Shown here piece after piece: positions 34,326 to 39,803 of a DNA stretch of 64,000 nucleotides. This stretch comes from Thauera sp. GDN1 (lineage in GTDB: Bacteria; Pseudomonadota; Gammaproteobacteria; Burkholderiales; Rhodocyclaceae), in contig NZ_CP097870.1 in the NCBI RefSeq assembly GCF_029223545.1, positions 2,976,001 to 3,040,000 of the forward strand, read 5' to 3'. Under the pieces are notes generated by a model that was not told the DNA's origin, made no database searches, and saw only the letters and a program-made list of their open reading frames with translations. The translations under genes were made by a program, and so were the position numbers. Each line of letters opens with the position of its first letter. Within the stretch, counting starts at the first letter, position 1.

Positions 34326-34329
34326 ACCG

Positions 34330-35223
34330 ATGACATCCCTCACGCCGCGCCAGGCGCTGCTGCTCTCGCTCGCGGCAGCGCTGACCACCATTGCGATGAA
34401 GACCGGGGCCTGGTGGCTCACCGGCTCGATCGGCTATCTGTCCGACGCGCTCGAATCGGTCGTCAACCTGGCCGGCGCCGGCTTCGCGCTGTGGATGGTG
34501 TCGTATGCCCGGCAGCCCGCCGACGACGACCACCAGTACGGCCACGGCAAGGCGGAGTACTTCTCCGCCGCCTTCGAGGGCGGGCTGATCTTCATCGCCG
34601 CGCTGATCATCCTGCTCACCGCCGGCGAGCGCCTGCTCAATCCGCAGCCGATCGGCGCGCTGGGGCTCGGCACCCTGCTCTCCGTCGGCGCGAGCCTGAT
34701 CAACTTCCTGGTCGCGCGGGTACTGCTGCAGGTCGGCCGCGCGCACCGCTCGCTCGCGCTCGAGGCCGATGCACGCCACCTGATGGCCGACGTATGGACC
34801 ACCGCGGGCGTCGTCTGTGGCGTCGGCCTGGCGGTCGTCACCGGCTGGAGCTGGCTCGACCCCGTCGTCGCCGGCGCAGTCGCGCTCAACATCCTGCGCG
34901 AGGGCTGGGAGCTGATGCGGCGCTCGATCGACGGCCTCATGGACCGCGCGCTGTCCGAGGCCGAGGTCGCCGCGATCGAACGCACCCTCGTCGAGGCCTC
35001 GCCGCCGGGATGCTTCCACGGCAAGCTCACCACCCGCGCCGCGGGCGCGATGCACTTCGCCCACGTCGAACTGTGCGTTCCCGGGGACTGGACCGTAGCC
35101 GAAGCCCATGGGATCGCCGATGCGCTCGAACGCATCGTGCTGGAGCGCACCGGCACCCGCCTCGCGACCCACCTCGAACCGATACCGCCGCCCGTCACGC
35201 CAGACGAAGCGGACCTGCCCTGA
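34330..35223 (+). CDS. Cation diffusion facilitator (FieF-like)
   Basis: Divalent metal/proton antiporter of 297 residues with six helices and a cytoplasmic C-terminal domain. Helix 2 has YLSDALESVVN (Asp39), helix 3 is preceded by HQYGHGKAE, and helix 5 has HLMAD (His150, Asp154). The position matching the second helix-2 Asp of FieF is Ser43, so the metal site is not the standard Asp-Asp/His-Asp. Exported metals (Zn, Fe, Co, Mn) cannot be named. It lies between a periplasmic protein gene and an OmpR-type regulator gene (39-bp gap), probably in one unit. Confidence 0.87.
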   Translation: MTSLTPRQALLLSLAAALTTIAMKTGAWWLTGSIGYLSDALESVVNLAGAGFALWMVSYARQPADDDHQYGHGKAEYFSAAFEGGLIFIAALIILLTAGERLLNPQPIGALGLGTLLSVGASLINFLVARVLLQVGRAHRSLALEADARHLMADVWTTAGVVCGVGLAVVTGWSWLDPVVAGAVALNILREGWELMRRSIDGLMDRALSEAEVAAIERTLVEASPPGCFHGKLTTRAAGAMHFAHVELCVPGDWTVAEAHGIADALERIVLERTGTRLATHLEPIPPPVTPDEADLP

Positions 35224-35262: not shown

Positions 35263-35934
35263 ATGCACCTGCTCATCGTCGAAGACGACCGCACCATCGC
35301 CGAGAACATCTACGAGTACCTGGAGGCGCGCGGCCACCAGTGCGACTACGCGAACTCGATCGCGGCGGCCTCGGCCCTGCTCGCGCGCACCCCGTTCGAT
35401 GCCATGGTCCTCGACCGCAACCTGCCCGACGGCGACGGGCTCGCGCTCGCACGCCGGCTACGCGCCGAAGGCCGGGCGACCCCGATCCTGGTGCTGACCG
35501 CGCGCGACGCGCTGGAAGACAAGCTGCTCGGCTTCGAGGCCGGCGGCGACGACTATCTGGTCAAGCCCTTCGCGCTGCAGGAGCTCGAGGTGCGCCTGCT
35601 CGCGCTGGCCCGGCGCAGCGCCGCGCGGCCCGCCGCCGAGCCGGTGTTGCGTCACGGCGAGCTGGAGTTCAACGGCGCGACTCAGGAACTGTGCGTGCGC
35701 GGCCAAGCCCTGGCGCTGCCCCCGAAACCGCTGCGCCTGGTCGCCGAGCTGCTCTCCCAGCCCGAGCGCGTGTTCTCCCGGCGCGAGCTGGAGATCGCCA
35801 TATGGGGCCACGAGCAGGACAGCAGCGACAACCTGCGCAGCGTGCTCCACACCCTGCGTCGCGCCCTTGGCGACGATGCGCCCACCCAGGTGGTCAATGT
35901 CCATGGACTCGGCTACAAGCTCGTCAGCCGCTGA
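35263..35934 (+). CDS. OmpR/PhoB-family response regulator (PmrA/QseB-like)
   Basis: Response regulator of 223 residues. The receiver domain has acidic DD at 8-9, phospho-acceptor Asp51 (MVLDRNLPDGDG), Thr in LVLTARD and Lys in YLVKPF. A winged-helix DNA-binding domain occupies about 128-221, with the recognition region DNLRSVLHTLRRALG and the wing VVNVHGLGYKL. Its gene overlaps the sensor kinase gene. Four TCAC boxes at 11-bp spacing ahead of eptA (37236-37272) are the natural candidate target, by analogy with PmrA control of eptA. Confidence 0.92.
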   Translation: MHLLIVEDDRTIAENIYEYLEARGHQCDYANSIAAASALLARTPFDAMVLDRNLPDGDGLALARRLRAEGRATPILVLTARDALEDKLLGFEAGGDDYLVKPFALQELEVRLLALARRSAARPAAEPVLRHGELEFNGATQELCVRGQALALPPKPLRLVAELLSQPERVFSRRELEIAIWGHEQDSSDNLRSVLHTLRRALGDDAPTQVVNVHGLGYKLVSR

Positions 35935-37222
35935 GGGCGGCGCGCACCGCGGCCGGCGACGCCGGCTGCCGGGCGGCCTGCGCCTCCGCATCGCGCTGTC
36001 GGTGACGGCGATGCTGCTGGTGCTCATCGTCGCGCAATCGCTCGCCCTGGTGCGGCTCAACGAGGAGATGGAGGAAGAGTTCATCACCGGCACGCTCGAC
36101 GAGCAGCTGCACTACAGCATCGAGCACAGTCGCCGGCTCGGCACCCTGATCGGGCCGCAGACACCGAACATGACGCTCTACCGCTTCGCCCCGGGCGAGG
36201 CGCTGCCGCAGGGGCTGAGCCCGGCACTGGCCGGCCTGGCCATCGGCAATCACGAGGACTGGTCCGCCGGCCGCGAGCTGCACGTTGCGGTGCGCGAGGC
36301 CGATGGCCAGCGCTATGTGCTCGTCTATGACGAATCCGAGCACCGCGAGCGCGAGTCGGCCGTGGTCACCACGGTCGTGATCGGTGCACTGATGCTGACG
36401 GCCTTGTCCTTCGTCCTCGTGTACGCGATCGCCGCCCGGCTCACACGCGGGCTGGAGACGCTCGCCGAACGCGTCGAGGGCGAGCGCGACGGCACGCCCT
36501 TCGCTCACGACGGGCTCGACGCCGAGCTCCTCGCCGTGGCGCGCGCCCTGGACCGGGCCGAGACACGGCAGGCGGCCGTGCTCGCGCGCGAACGGGACTT
36601 CAACGCCAACCTGTCGCACGAACTGCGCACCCCGCTCGCCGGCATCCGCAGCGACGCCGAGATGCTGCTCACCGACCCCGCGCTGTCCGACAAGGCCCGC
36701 CGGCGTGCGGAACGCATCGTCGCCACCACCGACCGCACCACGACGCTGGCCAACACCTTGCTGATGCTCGCCCGCGAGGCCCGGCCGCAGGCGCTGGAAA
36801 CGGTCGACCTGGGCGCGGCGGTGCGTCGCGCCTGGGAGCGCCTGCATCCTGCCGCGGCCGAGGCACTGACGATCCGCAGCGCCGCCCGGGCCGAGATCGT
36901 GGTCGACGCCAGCCTGCTCGAACTCGTGCTGCGGAACCTGCTGGAGAACGCGCTGCGCCATGGCGAGGGACACGCGATCGAGGTCGTGCTGGAGGGAAGG
37001 TGTCTCGCCATATGCGACCGCGGCCCCGGTTTCGGCGCGGAGGATCCGATGCGCAGCTTCGAGCGCTTCCGGCGCGGCGGCAGCAAGCCGGGGCACGGAC
37101 TCGGCCTGGCGCTGGTCCAGCACATCTGCACGGCCTGCGGGTGGTCCGTGCGCGCCGCGAACCGGCCCGGCGGCGGCGCCTGCCTGACGATCGATTTCGG
37201 GCCCGGCCCAGCATCGGCGTAG
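35903..37222 (+). CDS. Sensor histidine kinase (PmrB/QseC-like)
   Basis: Inner-membrane kinase of 439 residues. The first helix is near residues 30-50. A short periplasmic domain (about 52-152) is rich in acidic residues (NEEMEEEF) that could sense cations. The second helix is near 153-178. HAMP-like linker, then phospho-acceptor His239 in ANLSHELRTPLAG. The ATP-binding blocks are NLLENALRHG, DRGPGFG and HGLGLALVQHI. ATG 35903 overlaps the regulator gene by 32 bp; the in-frame ATG at 35897 is equally possible. The cognate partner is the preceding regulator. Confidence 0.9.
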   Translation: MDSATSSSAAEGGAHRGRRRRLPGGLRLRIALSVTAMLLVLIVAQSLALVRLNEEMEEEFITGTLDEQLHYSIEHSRRLGTLIGPQTPNMTLYRFAPGEALPQGLSPALAGLAIGNHEDWSAGRELHVAVREADGQRYVLVYDESEHRERESAVVTTVVIGALMLTALSFVLVYAIAARLTRGLETLAERVEGERDGTPFAHDGLDAELLAVARALDRAETRQAAVLARERDFNANLSHELRTPLAGIRSDAEMLLTDPALSDKARRRAERIVATTDRTTTLANTLLMLAREARPQALETVDLGAAVRRAWERLHPAAAEALTIRSAARAEIVVDASLLELVLRNLLENALRHGEGHAIEVVLEGRCLAICDRGPGFGAEDPMRSFERFRRGGSKPGHGLGLALVQHICTACGWSVRAANRPGGGACLTIDFGPGPASA

Positions 37223-37235
37223 GGCGGCGCCGCCC

Positions 37236-37272
37236 TCACACTTTCCTCACGGCCGCATCACACTTTCCTCAC
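37236..37272 (+). promoter_or_regulatory. Helically phased TCAC operator upstream of eptA
   Basis: TCAC occurs at 37236, 37247, 37258 and 37269, exactly 11 bp apart. It sits within a 15-bp direct repeat, TCACACTTTCCTCAC (37236-37250 and 37258-37272). Tandem 10-11 bp repeats are the binding mode of OmpR/PhoB regulators. The last box lies 11 bp before a TAGATT -10-like hexamer (37284-37289), covering the -35 region as expected for an activator. Confidence 0.72.
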
Positions 37273-37283
37273 ACCCGGCTTCG

Positions 37284-37289
37284 TAGATT
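37284..37289 (+). promoter_or_regulatory. -10 element of eptA
   Basis: TAGATT lies 29 bp before the eptA ATG. There is no good -35; the phased TCAC boxes occupy that place. Confidence 0.5.
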
Positions 37290-37318
37290 GCGTGGATCCT
37301 CACCGGCTCCGCGCGATC

Positions 37319-39052
37319 ATGCCCGAACAGCGTCTCTCCCTCGTCTCGCCCCCCTCCACGCCCGTTGCCGCCAACCCGGCCGGCGGCACTTCCCCTGGCT
37401 CGTCCATGCTGGCCGCCGCGCGGCGCTGGCGCCCCGAGATGTCGCCAGAGGGCCTGCTGCTCGGGCTCGGCCTCTACTTCACGCTGTCCTGCAACACCCC
37501 CTTCTGGCGCGCGCTGCTCGCCAGCCGCGGCAACGAAGGCGGCGCCCTCGCGTACCTGCTCGCGCTCGGCGTCGCGCTCACCGCGCTGAACTTCCTGCTC
37601 TTCGCGCCGCTGCTCAGCCGGCGGACGACCAAGCCGCTGCTGGGCGGCCTGATCCTCGTCGCTGCGGTCGCGAGCTACTACGCCGGCCACTTCGGCGTGT
37701 ATTTCGACCCGAGCATGCTGCGCAACGTGCTGCGCACCGACGTCGCCGAGGCGCGCGAGCTGCTCACCCCCGGCTTCTTCCTGCAGGTCGCGGCGCTGGC
37801 CCTGCCGCCGCTCTTCGTCCTCCAGCGCGCCCGCCTGCGCCGGCGCCCGCTGAAGCGCGCGCTGGCGATCCGCGGCGCATCGGTCGTGCTCGCGCTGATC
37901 ATTGCCGCCGGATCGCTCGGCAGCGTGTTCAAGGACTTCTCGGGCCAGATGCGCAACCACAAGGAGTTGCGTTACCTGATCACCCCGGCCGCGCCGCTGT
38001 GGTCGATAGCGCGCGTGCTCAGCCGTGACGCGCAGGCGGCCCAACAGCCGCGCCGGCCCGTCGGCACGGACGCCCGCCTGGGGGCGAGCTGGGCCGCGGC
38101 GAAGAAGCCGGCGCTGTTCGTGATCGTGGTCGGTGAGACCGCGCGTGCTGCCGACTGGGGGCTGAACCGCAGCGGCGGGCAGTCGCCCGCCCGCGACACC
38201 ACGCCCGAGCTCGCCCGCCGCGCGGTCATCAACTTCCCCGACGTGACGAGCTGCGGCACCAACACCGAGGTGTCGGTGCCGTGCATGTTCTCGCTGCAGG
38301 GCCGGCGCGACTACGACGAGGACGCCATCCGCGGCAGCGAGTCCCTGCTCGACACCCTGCAGCACGCCGGCCTGCGCGTGGTGTGGAACGACAACCAGTC
38401 GGGCTGCAAGGGCGTGTGCACCGGCGTGGAGCGCATGCGCCCCGACCCGGCCAGCCTCCCCGGACTGTGCGACGGCGAGCACTGCCTCGACGAGGCCCTG
38501 CTCGAGAGCAGCCGCGGGCTGCTGCGCGACGCCAAGGGCAACCTCGTGCTCGTGCTGCATCAGCTCGGCAACCACGGCCCGGCGTATTTCCGCCGTTATC
38601 CCGAAGCCTTCCGCCGCTTCACGCCGACCTGCGACGACGAGGACCTGTCGAAGTGCAGCCGCGAACAGATCGCCAACAGCTACGACAACGCCCTGCTGTA
38701 CACCGACCATGTGCTCGCGCGCGGCATCGACCTGCTGCAGGAACTGGCGCCGCGCTACGACACCGCGCTGCTCTACGTTTCGGACCATGGCGAATCGCTC
38801 GGCGAGAACGGCCTCTACCTGCACGGCCTGCCCTATTCGATCGCCCCCGCGGAGCAGACCCGCGTGCCGATGGTGATGTGGCTATCGAGCGGTTTCGCCG
38901 CGCGCAACAGGCTCGATCCCGCCTGCCTGCGTACCCAGGCCGACAAGCCCGCCGCGCACGACAACCTGTTCCACACCGTGCTCGGCCTGCTCGACGTCAA
39001 CACCGCGGTCCGCGACGACGCGCTGGACCTCACCGCACCCTGCCGGAGCTGA
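37319..39052 (+). CDS. eptA: EptA-type lipid A phosphoethanolamine transferase
   Basis: Inner-membrane enzyme of 577 residues that adds phosphoethanolamine to lipid A. About five helices span residues ~45-205, followed by a periplasmic sulfatase-fold domain. Zn-site and catalytic features are GET at 272-274, nucleophile Thr314 in TSCGTNTEVSVPCMFS, paired Cys, HQLGNHGPAYFRRYPEAF in part, and SDHGESLGENGLYLHG. ATG 37319 is preferred over the GTG at 37292, which lies only 3 bp beyond the -10. Such modification usually raises resistance to cationic peptides. It follows the two-component genes. Confidence 0.92.
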   Translation: MPEQRLSLVSPPSTPVAANPAGGTSPGSSMLAAARRWRPEMSPEGLLLGLGLYFTLSCNTPFWRALLASRGNEGGALAYLLALGVALTALNFLLFAPLLSRRTTKPLLGGLILVAAVASYYAGHFGVYFDPSMLRNVLRTDVAEARELLTPGFFLQVAALALPPLFVLQRARLRRRPLKRALAIRGASVVLALIIAAGSLGSVFKDFSGQMRNHKELRYLITPAAPLWSIARVLSRDAQAAQQPRRPVGTDARLGASWAAAKKPALFVIVVGETARAADWGLNRSGGQSPARDTTPELARRAVINFPDVTSCGTNTEVSVPCMFSLQGRRDYDEDAIRGSESLLDTLQHAGLRVVWNDNQSGCKGVCTGVERMRPDPASLPGLCDGEHCLDEALLESSRGLLRDAKGNLVLVLHQLGNHGPAYFRRYPEAFRRFTPTCDDEDLSKCSREQIANSYDNALLYTDHVLARGIDLLQELAPRYDTALLYVSDHGESLGENGLYLHGLPYSIAPAEQTRVPMVMWLSSGFAARNRLDPACLRTQADKPAAHDNLFHTVLGLLDVNTAVRDDALDLTAPCRS

Positions 39053-39056
39053 ACAC

Positions 39057-39803
39057 ATGCGGCCAGGCGAACTTTCCACCTCCGTTCCCGTGCCCGCGCT
39101 CGATGCGACGCGCCGGTGGCTGCTCGCGCAGTCCGCGCTGCTCGCACTGAGCGCCTTGGTGCTGTACTGGACCTTCGAAGCCACCGATCTCGACCGTCTG
39201 CTGGCGCAGTCACTCTTCGACCCCGAACTCGGCATCTTCCCCCTGCGGCGCAGCTGGCTCCTCGAGGCGGTGATGCACAAGGCGGCCAAGCAGCTCACCT
39301 ACGTGCTGGTGGCGGCCAGCCTTTACGTCTGCTGGCAGGGCTGGAAAGGCCGGCTGAGTTGGCTGCCGCCGCGCAATGCCCTGCTCGCGGCGCTCGGCAT
39401 GCTGGCGATCCCGCTCGCGACCTCGACCGCGAAGCTGCTGACCGCGCGCTACTGCCCCTGGGACCTCGTCGAGTTCGGCGGCTATGCGCCTTATCTCGGC
39501 TTGTTCGACCCCGCGCCGGCGGGCATCAAGGCCGGGCAGTGCTTCCCGGCCGGGCATGCATCGACCGGCTTCCTGTGGATCGTGTGGGCGGTGGCGCTGC
39601 GACCGGCCGGGCTGCGCATGGCACGCCGCGCGCTCCTCGTCGGCCTGCTCGCCGGCGCCACCCTCGGCACCGCGCGCATGCTGCAGGGCGCACATTTCCT
39701 GTCGCACACGCTGTGGACCCTGTGGCTGGCCTGGGGGGTGAGCGTGAGCCTCGCGGTGGCGGTGCGCGCCGACCTCGGTAGCGGAGATCGCCAGGGGTAC
39801 TGA
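39057..39803 (+). CDS. PAP2-family membrane phosphatase
   Basis: Membrane protein of 248 residues with about six helices. The three acid-phosphatase motifs are present in a variant form: KLLTARYCPWDL (instead of K-x6-RP), FPAGHASTGF (PSGH-like, with the catalytic His) and ARMLQGAHFLSHTLWTLW. The gene begins 4 bp after eptA, so the two are co-transcribed. By context it probably removes a phosphate from lipid A or a lipid carrier (LpxE/LpxT/undecaprenyl types), but the substrate is inferred. Confidence 0.85.
   Translation: MRPGELSTSVPVPALDATRRWLLAQSALLALSALVLYWTFEATDLDRLLAQSLFDPELGIFPLRRSWLLEAVMHKAAKQLTYVLVAASLYVCWQGWKGRLSWLPPRNALLAALGMLAIPLATSTAKLLTARYCPWDLVEFGGYAPYLGLFDPAPAGIKAGQCFPAGHASTGFLWIVWAVALRPAGLRMARRALLVGLLAGATLGTARMLQGAHFLSHTLWTLWLAWGVSVSLAVAVRADLGSGDRQGY

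Follow-up and report, generated by a model that had tools for sequence, protein, structure and literature searches.

A conserved operator-like array of TCAC boxes ahead of eptA in Thauera, a non-PmrA regulator clade and an exchangeable target gene

In Thauera sp. GDN1, the gene eptA lies downstream of a two-component system, and between the stop codon of the histidine kinase gene (37222) and eptA four copies of the motif TCAC follow one another in a regular register. This raises the question of which protein reads these boxes, and with what consequence for eptA. An initial annotation had proposed a PmrA-like activator of the OmpR/PhoB type, encoded directly upstream. All coordinates refer to the window, the whole 64,000-nt stretch of DNA that was analysed, unless a genome position is given. 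The gene order is CDF-family cation efflux, response regulator, kinase, array, eptA and PAP2, with the following genes:

34327-35223: CDF cation efflux gene (above cut-off with the NCBIfam CDF model; 261.3 bits with the MntE model, short of the 500 that this model requires)
35263..35934, forward strand: OmpR/PhoB-family response regulator (PF00072 and PF00486), the putative binder of the boxes
35867..37222, forward strand: sensor histidine kinase (PF00512, PF02518; the start is a mechanical TTG)
37319..39052, forward strand: eptA, lipid A phosphoethanolamine transferase (NF028537, PF00884, PF08019; proposed ATG start)
39057..39803, forward strand: PAP2-family phosphatase (PF01569)

An OmpR/PhoB-type regulator is indeed present upstream, but not directly so: its gene stops at 35934, and the kinase gene intervenes. 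The eptA product scores 545.8 bits with NF028537 (cut-off 500), 521.8 bits with its nearest MCR model, MCR-5 (below the cut-off of 1250), and 475.1 bits with the narrower EptA equivalog PRK11598 (cut-off 660). The PAP2 gene, whose product reaches 85.8 bits with NF028538 (below the cut-off of 275), begins 4 nt after eptA, and the two probably share an operon. The elements between kinase and eptA are these:

37236..37239, forward strand: TCAC box 1, first half of a predicted distal dimer site
37247..37250, forward strand: TCAC box 2, second half of the predicted distal dimer site
37258..37261, forward strand: TCAC box 3, in a predicted proximal dimer site, overlapping the -35 position
37269..37272, forward strand: TCAC box 4, in the predicted proximal dimer site, starting 15 nt before the -10 element
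37284..37289, forward strand: putative -10 element TAGATT (positions 1, 2 and 6 are T, A and T in 22, 25 and 25 of the 25 distinct promoters described below)

The box starts (37236, 37247, 37258 and 37269) are spaced by 11, 11 and 11 bp, and the exact 15-mer TCACACTTTCCTCAC, found at 37236 and again at 37258, forms a direct repeat with a period of 22 bp that extends to 20 nt at 90% identity. This confirms the coordinates of the initial annotation, which had described four TCAC boxes at exact 11-bp spacing within a 15-bp direct repeat. TAGATT begins 11 nt past the end of box 4, and from it we infer a transcription start (+1) at 37296. Relative to this +1 the array spans -60 to -24, with box 4 placed between -35 and -10; the array thus extends past the -35 region, on which it had been thought to end. 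The hexamers at spacers of 16, 17 and 18 bp from the -10 element (ACTTTC, CACTTT and ACACTT) do not resemble a -35 element, scans for sigma-70 promoters and for terminators returned no match, and neither did Rfam. The mechanical start of the eptA reading frame, GTG at 37292, lies upstream of the +1. Moreover, the stretch from the -10 element to the ATG measures 29 nt in the window and 30 nt in some relatives (e.g., L155). Because the 30-nt stretch breaks the longer frame and the GTG precedes the inferred +1, the GTG frame is disfavoured, and ATG at 37319 is the more likely start of eptA.

Such a run of boxes is not readily produced by base composition. When the 140-nt promoter region was shuffled 20,000 times with its dinucleotides preserved, three boxes in a row came up 3 times and four not once; within the 3.87-Mb genome, the exact three-box pattern is confined to the eptA promoter. 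The pair TCAC-N7-TCAC has three matches in the window, all within the array; pairs alone are weak evidence, since 17 of 100 shuffles of the whole window also reached three.

For comparison with relatives, we fetched 70 eptA-related loci and a further 18 loci from genomes picked by their regulator alone, to which T. terpenica was added. The regulator search (E<=1e-65) matched 19 of 297 genomes of the family, the window included, and 1 of 369 in a class-level sample, namely the window itself. Group A is defined by an orthologous regulator (55-91% identity to the window protein) and/or its kinase, with one locus (L039) admitted on its kinase alone, the regulator being off the contig. T. terpenica (L035), whose regulator is not orthologous, is outside the group-A counts, and loci with a cut-off upstream region (L037, L042, L068, also L016 and L017) were dropped. 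Merging records from the same contig gave 29 loci, including the window, and 25 distinct promoters, some of them closely related, so that the counts that follow are not independent.

At least two TCAC boxes at 11 bp are present in all 29 group-A loci with an intact upstream region, a result that shuffled upstream regions reproduced in a mean of 0.2 and a maximum of 4 of the 29. Four boxes are found in 22 loci, three in 2 and two in 5; the other spacings of TCAC pairs between 5 and 30 bp were 22 bp (24 loci), 20 bp (2) and 28 bp (1). In the 25 distinct promoters, the boxes are conserved above most spacer letters: all four are exact in 18, box 3 reads T25 C24 A25 C25 and box 4 reads T24 C23 A25 C25 (CAAC in T. 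propionica). In 26 of 29 loci, a -10-like hexamer of the form TAnnnT begins 15 nt downstream of the first letter of the last box; the exceptions are CACACT (L161), CAGCAT (L168) and GAGACT (L036), which keep letters 2 and 6 only. The register search gave a bonus for such a hexamer, and the register of L168 was reset manually. Of the five two-box promoters, L040, L166, L168 and L169 retain the -10-proximal pair, and L162 retains the distal pair, with TAAC and TGAC as boxes 3 and 4. At two loci (L032, L069) eptA matches in two separate pieces, which overlap in query range in L032, and the boxes ahead are intact. The initial annotation had suggested a check for its repeat in relatives with the same regulator/eptA order, and its prediction survived: the boxes recur in 14 of 14 loci from the eptA search that have the orthologous regulator and/or kinase and, as at least two boxes, in 18 of 18 regulator-picked loci. 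A chance or structural tandem repeat with no binding role would fit the fact that four-box arrays of other sequence occur elsewhere in the order; given the shuffles, the spacing control, the association with the regulator and the conservation of the boxes above most spacer letters, we hold it to be extremely improbable.

If the boxes are bound, by what? A TCAC pair within 300 nt upstream is found in 14 of 14 group-A eptA loci and in 1 of 53 loci without the regulator or kinase, all from the eptA search (3 dropped for a cut-off upstream region); in many of the 53, the distance from promoter to eptA match may exceed 300 nt. The associated Fisher p=1.5e-13 is a guide only, as the rows are related by descent. 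A three-box array occurs in 13 of the 14, and in none of the 53 when the whole loci are searched (389,509 bases, both strands). This comparison supports the initial proposal that the array serves the neighbouring OmpR/PhoB-type regulator, and the array is very probably the binding site of that two-component system. A different OmpR-family regulator might bind the boxes instead, the neighbouring pair being merely linked to them; indeed, 12 further regulators of the genome match at E<=1e-25, and T. terpenica has boxes with no orthologue of the regulator. Among the relatives found, however, the boxes track the regulator clade even where the target gene has changed, and 52 of the 53 eptA-related loci outside the clade have no boxes within 300 nt, such that a different binder seems improbable.

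T. terpenica does count against a strict tie between box and regulator. Four near-boxes (15 of 16 letters) and a -10 element precede its eptA, a divergent PmrA-type regulator (37%) stands beside the gene, and a search of its genome for the regulator found no orthologue, the best match reaching 41%. Either the operator has persisted after the loss of its regulator or a different protein acts on it. On the downstream side of its PmrA-type regulator and kinase genes, the same locus (L170/L035) also carries CTTAAG-N5-TTTAAG, a sequence that nearly matches a PmrA box. Across the 10 loci whose regulator has a PmrA/QseB-type helix, CTTAAG/CTTCAG pairs at 11 bp occur in 5 (L044, L047, L061, L087, L093; one pair reads CTTCAG/CTTCAT) and a TTAAG pair in L078. 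Neither is found in the other 4, namely L071, L072 and L074, with other sequences, and T. terpenica, with TCAC-type boxes. Judging from these sequences, box type follows helix type in part, with T. terpenica as one clear exception.

The regulator itself carries a receiver domain (PF00072) and a C-terminal winged helix (PF00486), both above cut-off. Its PDB matches include PmrA-DNA of Klebsiella (4s04) and PhoP-DNA (5ed4), and the closest solved structures by sequence are of PmrA (BasR), 4s04 among them. Within NCBIfam, PmrA is still the top model, but the score of 159.7 bits falls far short of its cut-off of 330. An AlphaFold2 model (mean pLDDT 92.7, pTM 0.60) places the recognition helix at residues 189-202 (DNLRSVLHTLRRAL). 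In the crystal of Klebsiella PmrA, bases are contacted by T187, N188, V192, H195, N196 and R210, according to the report on that structure (PMC4660055). The residues aligned to these here are S188, D189, S193, H196, T197 and H214, an identity of 1 in 6 (H195/H196) plus one conservative replacement (T187/S188). An earlier docking study also names K153 and H193 (PMC3973317), and the counterpart of H193 is V194. D189, T197 and H214 are invariant in 14 group-A regulator sequences; residue 193 is S apart from L034, which has G, and L040, where it is N and where residues 188 and 196 are G and Y. A CTTAAG-N5-CTTAAG box is absent from the eptA promoter, and the single genome site with one mismatch lies elsewhere. 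The regulator is of the OmpR/PhoB type and, by its sequence, not a PmrA. The description as PmrA-like thus holds for circuit and fold but not for membership, given the sub-cut-off score and the differences at most base-reading residues. The genome also encodes a second regulator with a PmrA/QseB-type helix (SNALEVHIHHLRKKL; G000:C1:3340170-3340814, L199), and about 4 kb from it, at genome position 3344648 (L208), lies a CTTAACTCGACCTTAAG site near genes that read, by eye, like yceI.

How many promoters might this regulator serve? A search of 29 genomes of the genus for TCACRNTTTCCTCAC gave 28 matches, spread over 14 genomes; 26 lie at the promoter described here, and the reversed control gave 0. 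The two matches elsewhere are single pairs, one of them 20-odd nt before an ORF that reads, by eye, like pyrF. With 26 of 28 matches at this promoter, a single target promoter per genome seems to be the rule for the regulator, though weaker sites could be missed. The window holds no further TCAC pair on either strand that would point to autoregulation through the same box. A search of the genome revealed no wider regulon: it gave one further site for the 15-mer with <=2 mismatches and, for three boxes with one mismatch, four further sites versus four in the reversed control. At the level of the order, the bare four-box pattern is not specific: it matches 42 times, in 37 of the 399 genomes, where the reversed control matches 14 times, and 4 of the 42 (G000, G314, G147, G399) belong to the same regulator type; 6 others, briefly inspected, had no clear target. 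Two kinds of array were noted among these matches. A+T-rich TTCAC arrays of four copies at 11 bp occur in five genomes (L123-L127; genera g24 and g164 of family f16), with two arrays in three of the five, and may serve another regulator as operator. Genomes of four families (L114-L116, L131, G124) have 11-bp arrays of GTCAC whose spacers resemble one another, with no clear target gene.

Where the regulator is retained, the gene after the boxes is not always eptA. An eptA match was absent after the boxes in 7 of the 18 regulator-picked loci (L153, L162, L163, L164, L165, L166, L169), and regulator, kinase and boxes are retained at the loci with an exchanged target. A sulfatase-fold gene (PF00884) follows the boxes in G011 (L153), G507 (L163), G399 (L165) and G630 (L166). 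Their best NCBIfam matches, all below cut-off, are lipoteichoic acid synthase for L153, phosphoglycerol transferase I for L165 and L166, and choline sulfatase for L163, with phosphoglycerol transferase I a close second. The locus of G147 (L164) is nearly identical to L165, and that of G343 (L169) reads alike; in G032 (L162), the contig ends within the gene that follows the boxes, and this gene matched no family. The promoter and eptA start of G011 align to those of G025 over 115 columns, after which the gene is a different one, and in G011 promoter and eptA leader codons run in one open frame into the LtaS-like gene. In at least four relatives, a sulfatase-fold, LtaS-like gene has taken the place of eptA, with regulator and boxes retained.

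We think it highly likely that the adjacent regulator binds as two dimers in tandem and so activates eptA-PAP2, whose promoter lacks a -35 element. The phosphorylated regulator, encoded two genes upstream, would take the TCAC array as its operator, with one head-to-tail dimer on boxes 1 and 2 and another on boxes 3 and 4. The proximal dimer would substitute for the missing -35 beside the -10 element and recruit RNA polymerase, and the distal dimer would contribute cooperativity. Switching on the operon would lead to lipid A modification and tolerance of cationic peptides. The signal may involve a metal, at which the CDF neighbour hints; here the CDF gene immediately precedes the regulator gene, and 5 of the 18 regulator-picked group-A relatives also have one upstream of the regulator. 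We propose two activating dimers because members of this family dimerise on tandem half-sites (PMC3973317, PMC4660055), because M. tuberculosis PhoP binds four TCAC repeats at 11 bp more tightly (PMC4832192), and because of the constant distance to the -10 element and the missing -35. Boxes 2 and 3 as a dimer site are slightly disfavoured, in that four of five two-box promoters keep the -10-adjacent pair and A+T content is lowest in the middle spacer (0.36 vs 0.60 and 0.45 in 18 four-box promoters).

The overlap of the array with the core promoter would also suit a repressor that occupies -60 to -24 and blocks RNA polymerase until a signal lifts the block. A promoter with no -35-like hexamer at 16-18 bp and no sigma-70 match by scan, however, looks weak on its own. 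A constant distance to the -10 element is typical of contact activation, and this distance is constant here; repression is accordingly a reading that we consider unlikely by a wide measure.

Taken further, the comparisons lead us to favour, with some reserve, a view in which a non-PmrA clade and its TCAC operator form a portable cassette with exchangeable output, and a second, independently evolved control of eptA. If so, regulator, kinase, tandem 11-bp boxes and a -35-less promoter would travel together, mostly within one betaproteobacterial family, and the output would be a lipid A phosphoethanolamine transferase in some genomes and an LtaS/phosphoglycerol-transferase-like enzyme in others, under a constant operator and regulator. 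For a chromosomal MCR-related gene of environmental bacteria, the locus provides what is probably a dedicated pair of regulator and operator, and it suggests that control of eptA need not use PmrA. The target exchange of the G011 type, the orphan operator of T. terpenica and the two-box versus four-box promoters are natural experiments on the evolution of a regulator and its sites. Literature searches, with most subscription journals outside their scope, listed no title that describes this motif or the control of eptA in Thauera, nor was a prior description of the box sequence, the regulator clade or the target exchange found.

The architecture of the array is known in the OmpR/PhoB family, where direct-repeat half-sites stand in a 10-11 bp register near the promoter. 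In the pho box, bound by PhoB, tandem 11-bp half-sites substitute for the -35 element, with roughly 10-11 nt between their end and the -10. The Thauera array is alike in its tandem 11-bp half-sites in place of a -35 and in its similar distance to the -10, and unlike in that the pho box half-site is TGTCA and the target the phosphate regulon. The PmrA box consists of two 6-bp half-sites 5 bp apart, and hence of an 11-bp register, with head-to-tail binding, as given in two reports (PMC3973317, PMC4660055). Enterobacterial PmrA (BasR) shares with the present system the OmpR/PhoB-type regulator, the 11-bp register and lipid A modification genes as targets, but its half-sites are CTTAAG, whereas Thauera has TCAC and four half-sites; the expectation of a motif unlike the CTTAA type is borne out, at a spacing equal to that of the PmrA box. 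Closest in letters is PhoP of Mycobacterium tuberculosis, for which the literature reports direct repeats of TCACAGC with a strict 4-bp spacer, which sets TCAC at 11 bp, and tighter binding of three and four tandem repeats, at 4.6 and 2.2 nM versus 19.2 nM for two (PMC4832192). The likeness lies in TCAC at 11 bp in tandem repeats; PhoP is another protein with another regulon, and the AGC after TCAC is missing in Thauera. The betaproteobacterial PmrA-type loci (L044, L047, L061, L087, L093) have a related eptA, an adjacent OmpR-type regulator and 11-bp boxes, and differ in their divergent gene order, SNAxEVHx-type helix and CTTAAG or CTTCAG boxes. Set against these systems, the Thauera locus presents a strongly conserved operator-like array of ordinary architecture and unusual box sequence, apparently tied to a non-PmrA regulator clade and to an exchangeable target.
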